NCBI RefSeq assembly: GCF_011008905.1 | Contig: NZ_JAAIVI010000020.1 | Span: 186,001-250,000, forward strand | Source: Wenzhouxiangella sp. XN201 | Lineage (GTDB): Bacteria; Pseudomonadota; Gammaproteobacteria; Xanthomonadales; Wenzhouxiangellaceae | Reading direction: 5' to 3' | Length of the DNA: 64,000 nucleotides | In this document: positions 43,507 through 59,995 of the stretch, piece by piece | Position numbering within the stretch: the stretch's first letter is position 1 | Layout of the letters: each line of letters begins with the position of its first letter | The notes under the pieces: generated by a model | Databases searched by the model: none | What the model was told of the DNA's origin: nothing | What the model saw: the letters and a program-made list of their open reading frames with translations, nothing else | Translations under genes and position numbers: made by a program

Positions 43507-44718
43507 GTGCCTTTGTTCGAATACAAGGCCGTCACCCCCGCTGGCGAGACCCTGAGCGGCGAGATGGATGCGCCCAGCAAGGAGCTGGTCATCGCGCACC
43601 TGCAGGAGTCGGGCAACATCCCGGTCTCGGCCAAGGAAGTCGGTTCGGGCTTCCGGCTCTCGGCCCTGTTGCGTGGCCGGCAAGGGCTCAAGCAGTCCGA
43701 GATCGGCGATCTGACTCAGCAACTGGCCACGCTTCTGAGTGCCGGCCTGCCGCTGGACCGATCGCTGGGCATCCTGGGCGAGCTGGCCGACAACGAGCGG
43801 GTCGAGAACACCATCGAGAAGATCCGCAACCGCGTGCGCGAAGGCGGTTCACTGTCGGAGGCGCTCGAAGAGCGTCACGGCGTGTTCTCGCGCTTCTACA
43901 TCAACATGGTGCGTGCCGGCGAGATCGGCGGTTCGCTCGACCACACCCTGTCGCGCATGGCCGAGTACCTGGAGCGCTCCAAGGAGCTCAAGGATTCGGT
44001 CATTTCGGCAATGATCTACCCGGCCTTGCTGGTGGTGCTGGCCGTCGCCTCGCTGATTCTGCTGATGGGCTACGTGATTCCCCAGTTCACCCCCATGTTC
44101 GAGGAATTCGGTGGCGAGCTGCCGTTGCTCACCAAGATCGTGATGGCAGTGGGCACCGGCTTGCAGAAATACTGGTGGGCCCTGATCGGGATCGTCGTGA
44201 TTGCCGTACTGTGGTTCCGGAGCCAGATGCGGCACCCGGCTTCGCGCCGCCGCTGGGATCGACGTTTCCTGCATACCCGGGGTATCGGCGAGGTCATTGC
44301 CAAGATGGAAACCGCCCGCCTGGCGCGCACGGCCGGCACCCTGCTGGTCAACGGCGTGCCGCTTTTGTCGGCACTTTCCATCGCCAAGAATGTCATGACC
44401 AATACAGTACTCGGCGACGACGTCGCCGAGGCGGCCAAGCAGGTCAAGACCGGCACGCCCATGGCGCGCGCACTGGCCGCCAACGACAACTTCCCGCGCC
44501 TCGCGTTGCAGATGGTCAACGTCGGCGAGGAAACGGGCAAGCTCGACGAAATGCTGCTCAAGGTGGCCGATACCTACGATCGCGATGTGCGCACGACCAT
44601 CGACCGCCTGATGGCCCTGATGGTGCCGGTGCTGACCCTGGGCCTGGCACTGGTCATCGGCGTGATCGTGATGTCGGTGCTGATGGCCATACTCGGTATC
44701 AACGAAATGGTCGCCTGA
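43507..44718 (+). CDS. gspF: Type II secretion inner-membrane platform protein GspF
   Basis: GspF is the polytopic core of the inner-membrane platform. The 403-residue product has the two repeated T2SSF domains (LTQQLATLLSAGLPLDRSLGIL around residues 75-95; MARLARTAGTLLVNGVPLLSALSIA in the second), each followed by membrane helices, three in all. The start is a GTG two bases after the gspE stop. Confidence 0.97.
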   Translation: MPLFEYKAVTPAGETLSGEMDAPSKELVIAHLQESGNIPVSAKEVGSGFRLSALLRGRQGLKQSEIGDLTQQLATLLSAGLPLDRSLGILGELADNERVENTIEKIRNRVREGGSLSEALEERHGVFSRFYINMVRAGEIGGSLDHTLSRMAEYLERSKELKDSVISAMIYPALLVVLAVASLILLMGYVIPQFTPMFEEFGGELPLLTKIVMAVGTGLQKYWWALIGIVVIAVLWFRSQMRHPASRRRWDRRFLHTRGIGEVIAKMETARLARTAGTLLVNGVPLLSALSIAKNVMTNTVLGDDVAEAAKQVKTGTPMARALAANDNFPRLALQMVNVGEETGKLDEMLLKVADTYDRDVRTTIDRLMALMVPVLTLGLALVIGVIVMSVLMAILGINEMVA

Positions 44719-44747
44719 GGCGGCCGCGGAATTTTCAATCAAAGAAT

Positions 44748-44761
44748 GCCCCCTGCGGGGC
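44748..44761 (+). other. Small hairpin just upstream of gspG
   Basis: GCCCC-CTGC-GGGGC lies in the gspF-gspG gap, directly before the GGAGGAAG ribosome site of gspG. A stem at this place could mark an RNA processing site or set pseudopilin levels; no T-tract follows, so it is not a terminator. Confidence 0.4.
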
Positions 44762-44774
44762 TGGAGGAAGCAAC

Positions 44775-45185
44775 ATGAACAAGGCGTCCGGAAATGCCGG
44801 TTTCTCGCTGATCGAATTGCTGGTCGTGCTGGTGATTCTCGGCCTGATCGCCGGCCTGGTGGTGCCCAACGTGCTCGAGCGCGGCGAAGACGCCAAGGTC
44901 CGTGCGGCCGAGGCCGAAGTGCAGCGTTTGTCGATGGCCGTCGATGAGTACTACCTTGACAACGGTCGCCCCCCGCGCGAGCTGCGCCAGCTGCTCGAGC
45001 GTCCCAGCGACGCGCGTAACTGGAACGGTCCCTATATCAAGGAATCCAACCTGAAGGACCCATGGGACCAGGCCTACGAGTACCGCTATCCGGGCGAGAA
45101 CCGCTCCTACGATATCTGGTCCTATGGTGCCGACAGCTCCCCGGGCGGAGAAGGCGGCAATGCAGACATCAATAACTGGGACTGA
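44775..45185 (+). CDS. gspG: Major pseudopilin GspG
   Basis: The major subunit of the pseudopilus. The 136-residue preprotein has a 9-residue leader MNKASGNAG cut before Phe (FSLIELLVVLVILGLIAGLV), the methylated N-terminal helix with Glu5, and the calcium-site loop with DPWDQAYEYRYPGE and a C-terminal SYGADSSPGGEGGNADINNWD, as in GspG of other species. A good GGAGGAAG site precedes the ATG. Confidence 0.97.
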   Translation: MNKASGNAGFSLIELLVVLVILGLIAGLVVPNVLERGEDAKVRAAEAEVQRLSMAVDEYYLDNGRPPRELRQLLERPSDARNWNGPYIKESNLKDPWDQAYEYRYPGENRSYDIWSYGADSSPGGEGGNADINNWD

Positions 45186-45735
45186 ACCGGAGTACGTGCT
45201 GCGCGATTGGGTTTTCGGAGTTTCGCCGCCCCGGCCTTGCCAGGCTGATGGGGGTCCCGGATCTTCGCTTCGCTCGTCCGGGATGCCTTCGCGCATGCGC
45301 GAAGGCGGCTTCAGCCTGATCGAGCTGATGGTCGTGATGCTGCTCGTCTCGCTGCTGTTCGCGGTGGTCGGTGTTTCGATCTCGCGCTCGGTCGAAGGCG
45401 CCGAGATTCGCAACGCCGCGCGCGAGATCACCGCCGGCATTCGCCACACCCGCGGCCAGGCCATTATCCAACGTCAGCAACAGGTCTTTCAGGTTGATGC
45501 CGACAAGCGCACCTGGCAAGCGGCCGGTCGCGAGTCGGTCGAGCTGCCCGCAGGGCTAGAAATCATACTCGATACCGCGCGCAGTGAAATGACTGGCGAA
45601 GAGGCCGGCGGTATCCGCTTCTACCCCGACGGGGCCTCCACCGGCGGCAGCGTCACGCTGCTGGCGCAGGAGCGCCAGTGGGTCATCAACGTATCCTGGC
45701 TGACCGGCGAGATCAGCATCGACCAGGAGTATTGA
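45160..45735 (+). CDS. gspH: Minor pseudopilin GspH, start uncertain
   Basis: The mature part begins FSLIELMVVMLLVSLLFAVVG with Glu5 and is followed by a GspH-like beta domain (AAREITAGIRHTRGQAI, IRFYPDGASTGG). Two starts are credible. The ATG at 45160 lies in the gspG end with an AGAAGG ribosome site and gives 191 residues with a 50-residue leader. The ATG at 45283 gives a canonical 9-residue leader MPSRMREGG and no ribosome site. The leader is encoded by a REP-like double hairpin (45254-45306). I list the coupled start because gspJ, the same structure without an internal ATG, must use the upstream type. Confidence 0.88.
   Translation: MQTSITGTEPEYVLRDWVFGVSPPRPCQADGGPGSSLRSSGMPSRMREGGFSLIELMVVMLLVSLLFAVVGVSISRSVEGAEIRNAAREITAGIRHTRGQAIIQRQQQVFQVDADKRTWQAAGRESVELPAGLEIILDTARSEMTGEEAGGIRFYPDGASTGGSVTLLAQERQWVINVSWLTGEISIDQEY
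45254..45306 (+). repeat. REP-like double hairpin inside the gspH leader
   Basis: First stem GTCCCGG(A) at 45254-45261 with TCCGGGA at 45277-45283. Second: a perfect 22-base palindrome at 45285-45306 with half-site GCCTTCGCGCA. The hairpins encode the residues before the prepilin cleavage site and end exactly where the mature coding sequence GGCTTCA begins. Confidence 0.8.
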
Positions 45736-46253
45736 TGAGTACCCGCAGGTCACATTGCTTCGGAACTCGCAGCCGGCTTCCGGGGCGTCCCGGATCGGGG
45801 TCCGGGATGCCTTCGCCCTTGCGCGAAGGCGGCTTCACGCTGATCGAGGTGATGGCGGCCTTCATGGTCTTTTCCCTGTTGTTCGGCGTGGTGTTGCAGA
45901 TTCTTTCGACTTCGGTGGGCAACACCCGAATATCCAGCGAATACACCCAGGCCGCGCTATGGGCGCAGTCCAAGCTTGATGTGCTCGGCCTGGAATCCAT
46001 GATCGAGCCCGGCGTGACTCACGGCGAGTTCGATGATCGTTTCTCCTGGACCATGGAAATCTCGGAAACCGAAGTGGTCGACGATCGTGCGCTGGACCTG
46101 CAGGACGAACTGCCGATCGCGCTCTATCACGTTCACCTGTTGGTTGAATGGGGCGAGGACGGGCGTCGCCAGGCTGAATTCGAAACACTGCGCTCGGTCG
46201 ATATTTATTGGGAGGAGCGGCAGCAGCAAATGGGTGGTGGGCCGCAGCCATGA
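45735..46253 (+). CDS. gspI: Minor pseudopilin GspI, start uncertain
   Basis: The 172-residue product starts at an ATG at 45735 that overlaps the gspH stop (TGATG), giving a 33-residue leader that ends MPSPLREGG before FTLIEVMAAFMVFSLLFGVVL. The mature part has Glu5, then QAALWAQSKLDVLGLE, typical for GspI, and a beta domain. The ATG at 45807 would give the usual 9-residue leader but has no ribosome site. The leader DNA contains the second REP-like element. GspI forms the pseudopilus tip with GspJ and GspK. Confidence 0.9.
   Translation: MSTRRSHCFGTRSRLPGRPGSGSGMPSPLREGGFTLIEVMAAFMVFSLLFGVVLQILSTSVGNTRISSEYTQAALWAQSKLDVLGLESMIEPGVTHGEFDDRFSWTMEISETEVVDDRALDLQDELPIALYHVHLLVEWGEDGRRQAEFETLRSVDIYWEERQQQMGGGPQP
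45787..45830 (+). repeat. REP-like double hairpin inside the gspI leader
   Basis: First stem GTCCCGGA (45787-45794) pairs with TCCGGGA (45801-45807), loop of six. Second: GCCTTCGC (45809-45816) pairs with GCGAAGGC at 45823-45830, with a short loop. Same order, sequence core and position relative to the cleavage site as in gspH. Confidence 0.8.
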
Positions 46254-47038
46254 CAGGGTTCGCTTCGACTCAGCCTTGGCGGCAGACTGCTGGAGGTCCC
46301 GGCTCGGCTTCGCCGTCCGGGACGCCCTGGCGCCGCGCGCGGCGCCAGGGCGGCTTCACGCTGATCGAGGTGATGCTGGCCATCGCACTGGTGGCGATCA
46401 TCATGGCGATGGCCTACGGCGGGTTCCGCGCCAGCGTTCGCGCCTCGAACTCGGGCGAGGCGTTGATCGAAGAAACCAATCGCTTGCGTGTCGTCCAGCA
46501 GTTCATGCGCCGCCAGCTGATGCAGGGCCGCTCGCTCATCATCGAGGAGTTGCAAGATGGTGAACCCGTGCGATTTCATGGCGAGGCCGAACAGGTGCGT
46601 TTCGTCGCCCCCATGCCGGGTTACCTGAGTTATGGCGGGGCCTATGTGCAGCAGTTCAGGCTCGAACCCGGCGATGAGGGCCTGGAACTGGTTTACTACT
46701 ACGCCATGCTCAATGGCTACGAGTCCGGCGATATCGACCATGTCACTGACGGCATCGTGCTGATGGAAGGCCTCGAGCAAGGCGAGTTCATCTATCTCGG
46801 TGTCGAAGAGGATGGCAGCGAGACTTTCTGGACCGATTTCTGGGAAAAAACCGACCGCTTGCCGCTGGCGGTGGGCGTGTTGCTCGACATGGACAGCCCG
46901 CGTGGCCTGGTCTGGCCTGACCTGATTGCGCCGGTGATGGTCGAGGCCGGTGATACGCAGCGCAGGCGCGAGATCCGGCGGGCCAGCGACATGCTGGTAC
47001 CGCGTGGCGCAAGGCGCGACGGGGGGCAACGGCAATGA
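46250..47038 (+). CDS. gspJ: Minor pseudopilin GspJ
   Basis: The 262-residue product starts at an ATG at 46250 overlapping the gspI stop (ATGA). A 35-residue leader (ending RRARRQGG) precedes FTLIEVMLAIALVAIIMAMAYGG with Glu5. GspJ hallmarks follow: a beta domain with LRVVQQFMRRQLMQGRSL, and LELVYYYAML and LPLAVGVLLDMDS. No other start between the operon overlap and the cleavage site exists, so here translation must run through the REP-like element at 46296-46351. Confidence 0.92.
   Translation: MTGFASTQPWRQTAGGPGSASPSGTPWRRARRQGGFTLIEVMLAIALVAIIMAMAYGGFRASVRASNSGEALIEETNRLRVVQQFMRRQLMQGRSLIIEELQDGEPVRFHGEAEQVRFVAPMPGYLSYGGAYVQQFRLEPGDEGLELVYYYAMLNGYESGDIDHVTDGIVLMEGLEQGEFIYLGVEEDGSETFWTDFWEKTDRLPLAVGVLLDMDSPRGLVWPDLIAPVMVEAGDTQRRREIRRASDMLVPRGARRDGGQRQ
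46296..46351 (+). repeat. REP-like double hairpin inside the gspJ leader
   Basis: First stem GTCCCGG (46296-46302) with CCGGGAC (46317-46323), strengthened by an inner CGGC/GCCG pair. Second: a perfect 28-base palindrome at 46324-46351, half-site GCCCTGGCGCCGCG. The third copy in this operon, ending at the same place relative to the mature GspJ N-terminus. Confidence 0.82.
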
Positions 47039-47928
47039 TTCGGGCAGGGGCACAGCGCGGCATCGCCCTGATTGTCGTACTCTGGATTCTGGTGTTGCTG
47101 ACCATCGTGGTCGGCATCTATTCGGTGCTGGCGCGTACCGAAAGCTTGCAGGCGCGCTTCCTGTTCGACACCACGATTGCCCGCTATGCGGCCGAGGCCG
47201 GCATCCACCGCGCCGCCTACGAGATGCGCAATGCCGACATCGAAACGCGCTGGGTACCCGACGGCCGTCCCTATACCATCAACTTCGGGGATGCCGAAGT
47301 CGAGATCCGGATCATCGACGAGTCGGGCAAGATCGACATCAATCGTGCCGACGCCGACCTGCTTTCGGAACTGTTCATCTCACGCGGCATGGAGGAAACC
47401 GAGGCCTGGCACATGGCCGATGCGATTATCGATTGGCGCGACCCGGACGACGTGCCTGGCCTCTACGGCGCTGAACTGCCCGAGTACGACGCGGCGGGTT
47501 ATCCTTACGGACCCGCCGACGAACCGTTCGGTTCGGTCGACGAGCTGCAGCAGGTGATCGGCATGAGCTGGGACCTGTTTCGTGAACTTGAGACACTGCT
47601 GACGGTCAATTCCAACTCCAGCCGGGTCAATCCGGCTTTCGCACCGGCCGAAGTGCTGGCCGCGCTCCCCGACATGACCCAGGAAGACGCCGAGCTTTTC
47701 GTCGAGGAGCGCCAGCAGTTCCACCCGGCCGATCAGCAGGCCCTGTTCCTGCCTGACGGCACGGTGGTCAGCTTGCAAGGGCGGGGGCGGACCTTTAGCA
47801 TTCGCTCGCGGGCGACGCTGGACGGCGGTACCTGGAGTGAAGTGCAAGCCACGCTCGAACTGGGCGGCAATCATCGCGGTCGCCCGTTTCGGGTACTGCG
47901 CTGGCGTGACAATGTCGAGGATCGATGA
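47035..47928 (+). CDS. gspK: Pseudopilus tip protein GspK
   Basis: GspK caps the pseudopilus. The 297-residue product has a short leader and hydrophobic helix (RGIALIVVLWILVLLTIVVGIYSV) without Glu5, as usual in GspK, then the core: RYAAEAGIHRAAYEM, IIDESGKIDINRADADLLSEL, ADAIIDWRDPDD, and FGSVDELQQVIGM with an inserted alpha domain. Start ATG overlaps the gspJ stop. Confidence 0.96.
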   Translation: MIRAGAQRGIALIVVLWILVLLTIVVGIYSVLARTESLQARFLFDTTIARYAAEAGIHRAAYEMRNADIETRWVPDGRPYTINFGDAEVEIRIIDESGKIDINRADADLLSELFISRGMEETEAWHMADAIIDWRDPDDVPGLYGAELPEYDAAGYPYGPADEPFGSVDELQQVIGMSWDLFRELETLLTVNSNSSRVNPAFAPAEVLAALPDMTQEDAELFVEERQQFHPADQQALFLPDGTVVSLQGRGRTFSIRSRATLDGGTWSEVQATLELGGNHRGRPFRVLRWRDNVEDR

Positions 47929-56101: not shown

Positions 56102-57106
56102 ATGATTCGAGCCACCATGCTGCGTTCGATCTGCGAACGCAGCATCGTAGTCATGTGCGTGATGCTGTTGACGGCAACTGCTGTTGCGCAAAATGCCGAG
56201 CGTATAACCCGTGAGTTAAATGCGAGTCACGAGTCGGAGTTATTTGCGCGCCAAGGTGGCGCGGAAGTTACCCAAGCCGATTTCGACGCGTACCTCAGCC
56301 GCATACCGGAAGAAGATCATCACGGGCTGCTCATCAGCCCGGATCGCGTCGGGAAGATTCTGACTAACCTGATGCTCGCGCGGATGCTCGCCGAAGAGGC
56401 TCGCCAGGACACCGAATTTTTCGAGGATACTGACCGCCAGGCCCGCTTGTACCAATCTGTGGTGGTATTCCTTGCCGAAGAGTTTCGTGCGCACTATCTG
56501 TCCGAGCGAATGCTGGACGATTACACGCAGCAGGCCCGAGAGCTCTTCCTGACTGAGCCAAATAGGTTTCGCACGCCCGAAACGGTGGATTTCACCCATA
56601 TTCTGGTTGAATCGGGTCGCGAACGTGGCGAGACGAGAGCCATGCAACGAATCCTAGAGGTTTATGATCGCTTGAAGGACGGCGCGACTCTCGACTCCTT
56701 GGTCGAGGAGTACTCGGATGATCCCGAGGCCGAAAGCAATGGCGGACAGTACGAAAACGTCGATCCCGCCGCCCTTGACGACAACGTGGCCGAAACCCTG
56801 GCTATTCTTCAGCCGGGACAAATCTCCGAACCCGTGCGTTCTGAATTCGGCTGGCACATCGTGCGTCTGGACGGCAAGAAAGAGCCGCAGAAACTAGAAT
56901 GGGAAAAAGCCAAAGCCCAGGCACGCCAAATCGCGCGTTCCGACCACCGAGCTCGACTTATCGATTCGCTTTATCGTCGTCTGCTCGACAGGCCGTTGGA
57001 AGTCGCACCTGGCGCGCTGGAACGACTGATGGACCGTTATGACGTTGATCGGGACGACTATCCGTCCATTCAGGAGATCAGTGAGCGAATTTCGGAGGAA
57101 TCCTAG
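56102..57106 (+). CDS. Periplasmic parvulin-type peptidyl-prolyl isomerase (SurA/PpiC-like)
   Basis: A 334-residue exported protein: signal peptide (SIVVMCVMLLTATAVAQ), a SurA-like helical N-domain (about 30-165) and one parvulin domain (about 170-275) with VDFTHILVESGR, LDSLVEEYSDDPEAESNGGQYENV and ISEPVRSEFGWHIVRLDGKKE, typical of rotamase motifs; a helical C-domain follows. The codon use is like that of the preceding gene. It probably helps fold or protect the exported protein encoded just upstream; a general role in outer-membrane protein folding is equally possible. Confidence 0.88.
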   Translation: MIRATMLRSICERSIVVMCVMLLTATAVAQNAERITRELNASHESELFARQGGAEVTQADFDAYLSRIPEEDHHGLLISPDRVGKILTNLMLARMLAEEARQDTEFFEDTDRQARLYQSVVVFLAEEFRAHYLSERMLDDYTQQARELFLTEPNRFRTPETVDFTHILVESGRERGETRAMQRILEVYDRLKDGATLDSLVEEYSDDPEAESNGGQYENVDPAALDDNVAETLAILQPGQISEPVRSEFGWHIVRLDGKKEPQKLEWEKAKAQARQIARSDHRARLIDSLYRRLLDRPLEVAPGALERLMDRYDVDRDDYPSIQEISERISEES

Positions 57107-59882: not shown

Positions 59883-59995
59883 GTCGTCCCGGAAACGCCA
59901 CAGGCGTTATCCGGGACCTCGCAAACAGCTGCTGGCAATCAGACAGGCCGTGCCTACCTGTACGTGCGAGGTCCCGGCCTTGGGGCCGGGACGAC
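59883..59995. repeat. REPIN-like element (two inverted REP hairpins)
   Basis: Left hairpin: TCCCGG (59887-59892) with CCGGGA (59911-59916) around AACGCC/GGCGTT. Right hairpin: TCCCGGCC (59972-59979) with GGCCGGGA. The outer ends GTCGTCCCGG and CCGGGACGAC are inverted copies, as are CCGGGACCTCGC and GCGAGGTCCCGG. The GTCCCGG/CCGGGAC core is that of the elements inside gspH-J. It sits between a glycosyltransferase and the methyltransferase gene with no other content. Confidence 0.75.

Follow-up and report, generated by a model that had tools for sequence, protein, structure and literature searches.

Why should three consecutive genes of a single secretion operon carry the same pair of hairpins, in each case directly before the codons at which the encoded precursor is cleaved? 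The question is raised by a 64,000-nt stretch of DNA, the whole of which is here called the window, from the 3.13 Mb genome of Wenzhouxiangella sp. XN201 (G000; assembly 97.88% complete). The region of the window holding gspG-gspK is a type II secretion system (T2SS) operon: the identities of gspG, H, I, J and K, which follow one another in the order G-H-I-J-K, are backed by family matches, and the GspG of this genome shares 79% identity with the Wenzhouxiangella sediminis protein. Other genes of the operon, which we take by sequence and order to be gspE, gspF and later members, complete the picture. GspH, GspI and GspJ belong to the class III signal peptide minor pseudopilins, as indicated by the G|F[ST]LIE motif, the hydrophobic helix and a family match; N_methyl scores above Pfam's cut-off in all three, and the matches to XpsH (H), XpsI (I) and PRK08808 (J) fall below NCBI's curated cut-offs. 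A prepilin leader remains cytoplasmic, and prepilin peptidase severs it from the protein. The same genome encodes a second GspG-like pseudopilin cluster (L069, C17:432000-437000), whose leaders lack REPs.

As the initial annotation had reported, gspH, gspI and gspJ each contain a hairpin of the form GTCCCGG..CCGGGA (hp1) and a GC-rich palindrome (hp2) directly 5' of the cleavage codons (Table 1), and all three composites run into the same sequence, GGCGGCTTCA. The palindromes of gspH and gspI had been described correctly, and that of gspJ, given as 28 nt, proved to be 30 nt long; no longer palindrome turned up in the window when arms of at least 10 with loops of up to 7 were scanned for. The gspI palindrome is that of gspH with two central positions changed, and is 91% complementary to the gspH copy.

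Table 1. Positions in the window of the pseudopilin genes, of the hairpins in their leaders and of a further REP
Feature	Position	Strand	Remarks
gspG, major pseudopilin	44775..45185	+	9-residue leader including Gly-1, element absent
gspH, minor pseudopilin, XpsH-like	45196..45735	+	Phe+1 codon 45310
gspH leader hp1, REP unit GTCCCGG...TCCGGGAT	45254..45284	+	span 29
gspH leader hp2	45285..45306	+	perfect 22-nt palindrome, adjoins Gly-1 codon 45307-45309
gspI, XpsI-like	45735..46253	+	Phe+1 codon 45834
gspI leader hp1, REP unit	45787..45808	+	span 20
gspI leader hp2	45809..45830	+	near-perfect 22-nt palindrome, family of gspH copy
gspJ, PRK08808-like	46250..47038	+	Phe+1 codon 46355
gspJ leader hp1, REP unit	46296..46323	+	span 26
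gspJ leader hp2	46323..46352	+	perfect 30-nt palindrome; last base is first of Gly-1 codon
Further REP, AT-armed type (TCCCGGAAACGCC...GGCGTTATCCGGGA)	59887..59916	.	outside T2SS leaders

The hp1 pattern (TCCCGG..TCCGGGA) yields seven rows at four places in the window, three of them read on both strands, versus 0.14 expected, a count reached by none of 100 shuffles; the matches in the leaders cover 45255-45283, 45788-45807 and 46297-46322. Across the genome it yields 58 rows, 27 of them forward and 31 reverse, which fall at 34 places including the three leaders, versus 3 + 3 rows for a reversed-control pattern; several of these places look like chance matches within genes. These counts, far above shuffles and reversed control, reject a chance origin of the window repeats, and the presence of GTCCCGG-type copies around the genome bears out the initial proposal on this point. 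The hp1 core of gspI is identical to that of a REP outside the operon (L003, C17:496640), and hp1 is a bona fide dispersed REP. No Rfam model matches at E up to 1 within 44500-47500, and identity with a known Rfam RNA is rejected. Elsewhere in the window (56117-56145) lies a 29-nt hairpin, ATGCTGCGTTCG..CGAACGCAGCAT, with arms of 12 bp.

In the stretches of G000 that were read, REPs outside the operon often form inverted pairs, GTGCGAG-RTCCCGG..CCGGGA-YGACA, an arrangement that fits the CGTC class with a TGTC variant as laid out in the accessible parts of PMC3733652. They mostly end in CGACA/TGACA, which reads as TGTC, one of the known CGTC variants, on the opposite strand, and several copies in a related genome, G017, end in CTAC (GTAG on the other strand). 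In the leader units CG, TG, CA or TA follows GGGA, so this terminal tag is only partly kept; head-to-head dimers, common for the CGTC type, were not seen among these units, which are single or in direct tandem only. The TGTCRTCCCGG..CCGGGA copies of G000 thus resemble the CGTC elements of that paper, for which its accessible text gives TGTC/CCTC variants and leads one to expect no linked RAYT transposase (PMC3733652). A gene for Y1_Tnp (RAYT-type transposase) was not found in the 97.88%-complete assembly of G000; such genes are present in 9 of 30 genomes of the genus. At six of 19 Y1_Tnp places a narrow pattern detected no hp1-type REP within 1.5 kb on each side (less at contig ends), and an adjoining RAYT is rejected for those six. 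In G017 a high-copy REP ending in CTAC (e.g. L093, L100, L104) coexists with an 85%-complete assembly in which no Y1_Tnp was found.

The second hairpin has a different standing. When the gspH composite was used as query against G017 it gave 39 matches, only one of them in the T2SS, and the remainder, among the matches listed, cover the hp1 part only. Matches spanning most of hp2 were obtained with this query in T2SS leaders of G000, G011, G017 and G009, with two weak hp2 matches outside the T2SS (G003:C44 and, partly, G005:C201); the gspJ element as query gave several weak hp2 matches outside leaders, with E from 3e-4 to 0.006. Ten weak outside matches were read (two from the gspH and eight from the gspJ query; four others, touching the element's middle or hp1, were not among them), and all are ordinary GC-rich stretches with neither a prepilin motif nor a full REP adjoining. 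A dispersed hp2 repeat is thereby rejected: the dispersed REP does not include hp2, and good matches to it were seen only in T2SS leaders.

We derived a covariance model from ten units of the composite and scored 150 candidates per genome with it in 30 genomes of the genus. Thirteen hits exceeded 50 bits, and every one fell in the T2SS operon, a result that is partly by construction because the model was built from such units; the window gspI copy itself scored only 35.6 bits. In the next hits (44.1 and 43.2 bits, under the same limit of 150 candidates per genome) a REP stands next to a different stem-loop, at the end of a presumable dnaK gene, judged by its C-terminal letters. Such a REP adjoining a stem-loop at the apparent dnaK 3' end recurs in three genomes (L058/L097, G000:C17:1757729; L091, G009:C211; L086, G027:C1:1496005).

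Are these elements actually translated? In gspJ there is no ATG, GTG or TTG 3' of the element, and the nearest in-frame start, ATG 46250, lies 5' of it and overlaps the gspI stop, giving a leader of 35 residues including Gly-1, just as the initial annotation had held. A start 3' of the element is likewise lacking in G017 gspH, G011 gspI and G003 gspJ, the nearest being 46, 63 and 39 codons away. The gspH start is uncertain, with GTG 45196 giving a leader of 38 residues including Gly-1 and ATG 45283 one of nine. For gspI, ATG 45735 overlaps the gspH stop, is served by a good Shine-Dalgarno sequence (AGGAG at 45725-45729) and gives a leader of 33 residues including Gly-1, with ATG 45807 as alternative. 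Because the in-frame ATGs 45283 and 45807 stand at the 3' edge of hp1 (gspH has one more inside hp2), reading through the element is strictly needed in the window only for gspJ.

Nevertheless, translation of the leaders from their upstream starts is made probable by the reading frame. All 13 leader units have hp1 spans that are 2 mod 3 (span 29 in seven, 20 in five and 26 in one), versus 16 of 46 comparable REP rows elsewhere (span 30 in 22, 20 in 15, 19 in four, 31 in two, 22 in two and 41 in one; Fisher 2e-5, a value that is uncorrected for relatedness and overstates the case because the units are related to each other). These 46 rows come only from stretches read for other parts of the analysis and partly chosen for matching REP patterns; at least one place, L200, enters twice, once per strand, and the span-41 row resembles a chance intragenic match. 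Span 29 occurs in seven of 13 leader units and none of the 46 others; as span 20 is also found outside leaders (15/46), only the span-29 and span-26 types are leader-specific. Further, 13 full units keep one phase relative to the cleavage codon and a single orientation, though the lengths of hp1 and hp2 vary. The two sets of 13 overlap in 11 units: the span set adds two upstream tandem units of G011, the phase set adds G018 gspH and G029 gspI, and the decayed units (G008, G009 and G029 gspH; G019 gspI) are in neither.

We read the leaders at 30 loci from a first search, in W. sediminis (L048), whose gspI and gspJ carry the element, and in 20 further genomes (one of the genus, six of the family and 13 of the order). 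The covariance model matches nine of 50 operon loci at E up to 0.1, and the 41 without the element reject the view of a conserved ancestral coding feature; the reading of the relatives' leaders thus speaks against ordinary conserved coding, the outcome that would have counted against a captured repeat. Since hp1 is dispersed, 41 of 50 loci lack the element and a single reading phase is kept, the proposed capture of a REP as leader coding sequence is supported as far as hp1 is concerned; the inclusion of hp2 in that REP has to be dropped. In the genus, where 25 operons were read (some loci being cut, and G001, G010, G015, G022 and G023, which showed no close GspG, left out), the composite is present whole or decayed in nine and absent from 16. 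It occurs as a whole set or pair in G000 (H, I, J), G011 (I, J) and G003 (I, J). G017 has a gspH composite and hp2 only in gspI; G008 a gspI composite and half of hp1 in gspH; G019 a gspH composite and a decayed gspI copy; G009 and G029 gspI composites and decayed gspH copies; and G018 a gspH composite. The element was absent from gspG in all operons read and from the 25 genomes outside the genus.

In a GspF+GspG tree of 30 rows, eight of the nine carriers fall in one starred clade of nine rows, with G018 standing apart; the carrier pattern needs at least three changes, and none of 500 shuffles was as low. In G027, the sole non-carrier of this clade, the gspJ leader runs to 35 residues and includes a 6-bp stem; the covariance model finds no match there, and this may be a decayed copy. 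In what was searched the element is confined to gspH, gspI and gspJ: in seven genomes hp1 was found in none of 76 other (non-T2SS) prepilin leaders, and a stem score of at least 7 in one of them, versus 11 and 13, respectively, of 28 T2SS leaders, seven of which are gspG (these 104 prepilins were found by motif; a profile search listed 124 in the same genomes). A trait of all prepilins is thus rejected, and the earlier suggestion that the leader simply tolerates insertions is not the whole story.

The relationships among units cut across both genes and species. The closest relatives include the gspH unit of the window and the gspJ unit of G011 (54/57 identical), and the units of G019 gspH and G009 gspI (56/60). 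Longer stretches of leader also match, with G009 gspI and G019 gspH at 79% over 126 nt, and G011 gspI and gspJ, both of which contain tandem units, at 83% over 99 nt. Given that span 29 is found in seven of 13 leader units and in none of 46 rows elsewhere, at least the span-29 leader units look like a lineage of their own. The leader-specific span together with the matching of whole leaders across paralogs makes three separate insertions unlikely; from these comparisons, a single capture, or a small number of them, with later copying would fit better. In the window, gspI and gspJ share 27 nt of right flank without a difference, which would offer a ready place for recombination; between gspH and gspI the unbroken match is just 10 nt long, a point against this reading.

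The explanation that we favor, with a probability of about 0.72, is that the cleaved leader took up a REP in frame, on one or a few occasions, and that this REP was then copied among the minor pseudopilin paralogs and is mostly a tolerated passenger. A dispersed REP unit would have entered a minor pseudopilin leader in frame, no later than in the ancestor of one Wenzhouxiangella clade, adjoining a local stem-loop that supplies, with its 3' arm, the final codons of the leader. It would then be translated within the class III signal peptide and presumably lost, along with the rest of the leader, on cleavage by the prepilin peptidase, so that the mature pseudopilin would be unchanged. Subsequently, the REP/stem-loop cassette would have spread by copying among gspH, gspI and gspJ and undergone tandem duplication. 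Recombination over the near-identical GGCTTCACGCTGATCGAG right flank is the probable route, perhaps aided, on general grounds, by breakage at the hairpins. Where no closer start is available, this would give leaders 35 to 63 residues long, and the element itself is most likely neutral.

The claim of neutrality meets its main challenge in the structure of the composite. Paired stem-loops might tune translation or mRNA stability of the minor relative to the major pseudopilins, as could be argued from the consistent absence of the element from gspG in the operons read and from the strong predicted folds of gspH (z-score -2.2; 6/200 shuffles fold as well) and gspJ (-4.0; 0/200). The gspI fold (-1.6; 16/200) is ordinary, and not special, because hp2 does not form in it. 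Among ten aligned units, hp2 shows changes on both sides in seven of 11 pairs, with pairing in 92.7% of hp2 cells and 94.7% of all cells; the covariation score was reached by none of 500 shuffles, and sliding the partner by 1-3 columns lowers pairing to 33-48%. A comparison of G009 gspI with G019 gspH reveals one clean double change, U-A for C-G. Such two-sided changes could mean selection on structure instead of passenger status, but arm-to-arm repair of palindromes can also yield double changes, and the data are compatible with both. Moreover, sister species carry differing H/I/J subsets, 16 of 25 genus operons lack the element altogether, and hp1 begins 46-58 nt 3' of the upstream starts, beyond the initiation zone, which makes blocking of initiation unlikely, though stability or elongation might be affected. 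On balance we regard regulatory hairpins as an unlikely explanation.

Repeated independent insertion of one REP type at a preferred target, be it the conserved GGCTTCACSCTGATCGAG motif of prepilins or a stem-loop already in place, could also give similar units across genes, at the same position in three paralogs, and could draw on the REPs beside stem-loops at the apparent dnaK end in G000, G009 and G027 as well as on the G018 unit outside the main clade. We consider it quite improbable: the shared hp2 speaks against it, as do the 76 other prepilin leaders without hp1, the absence of spans 29 and 26 among the 46 REPs outside leaders, the single orientation and phase, and the lack of a Y1_Tnp transposase in G000. 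It could further be objected that the real starts lie downstream, with the REPs in short intergenic or 5' untranslated stretches. The ATGs after hp1 in gspH and gspI of the window could indeed give a 9-residue leader and make hp1 untranslated leader RNA, an in-frame ATG is present inside hp2 of G011 gspJ, and the same was suspected for many 5'-end REPs in the accessible text of Di Nocera et al. (PMC3733652). With no start 3' of the element in four of the leaders (window gspJ, G017 gspH, G011 gspI and G003 gspJ) and with the 3-nt periodicity of the leader units, this objection appears very improbable to us.

Beyond in-frame capture with subsequent copying, a more tentative and, taken as a whole, rather doubtful extension is that the cleaved leader serves as a landing and exchange zone, in which a coding REP/hairpin cassette moves between gspH, gspI and gspJ through hairpin-triggered recombination over the conserved cleavage-site codons, with hp2 kept by selection or by arm-to-arm repair. 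If true, the leader would evolve much like an exon, as a module open to replacement.

Palindromic repeats inserted in coding genes have a precedent in the Rickettsia palindromic elements (RPE), which to our knowledge sit in unrelated genes and show no confinement to a processed leader. RPE-4 and RPE-6 are equated with CGTC repeats in the accessible parts of PMC3733652, and the leader REPs and RPEs, likened here by description, possibly share the CGTC superfamily. GTAG/CGTC REPs are portrayed there as short palindromic elements, mostly intergenic and in some cases intragenic (Di Nocera et al. 2013, PMC3733652), and in-frame REPs are hence already known from that work and from the RPEs. Unlike those REPs, which in the text available to us lie at scattered sites of varied genes, many of them for DNA repair, the present ones occupy three paralogous leaders of one operon, as a leader-specific unit joined to a palindrome in the part that is cut off. 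The enterobacterial RU-1/2/3 repeats, as far as PMC2759123 was accessible, are likewise small mobile repeats turned coding; they are longer (103-168 bp) than those described here, and paralog shuffling is not mentioned for them in that portion. In keeping with class III signal peptides of XpsH/XpsI-type GspH/I/J, the proteins have Gly-1, Phe+1, Glu+5 and the hydrophobic helix; unlike usual class III leaders, theirs are repeat-encoded and reach 35 to 63 residues, with many other leaders of the genus starting 6-20 codons away. Variation of prepilin leader length, with very long leaders in Streptococcus sanguinis, is noted in the accessible part of PMC10191384.

The confinement to the leaders of three paralogs, the leader-only unit type and the copying across paralogs appear new within what was searched; no description of REPs in prepilin leaders was found in titles and abstract openings of the open-access literature, which does not imply absence from print. 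The locus offers a clear natural case of intergenic repeats turned protein-coding and kept in frame in a later-removed part of a protein, and apparently shuffled between neighboring paralogs. It suggests that a class III leader can become several times longer while its gene is retained, and the leader length accepted by the prepilin peptidase becomes testable. Apart from REPs, gspH leaders lacking them carry other repeats, such as runs of GGGACTC or of GGTTTCC/GGTTTCAG (L022 in G005, L023 in G025 and L025 in G014; L020 in G011 and L021 in G003), and the gspG-gspH junction therefore collects repeats of several kinds.
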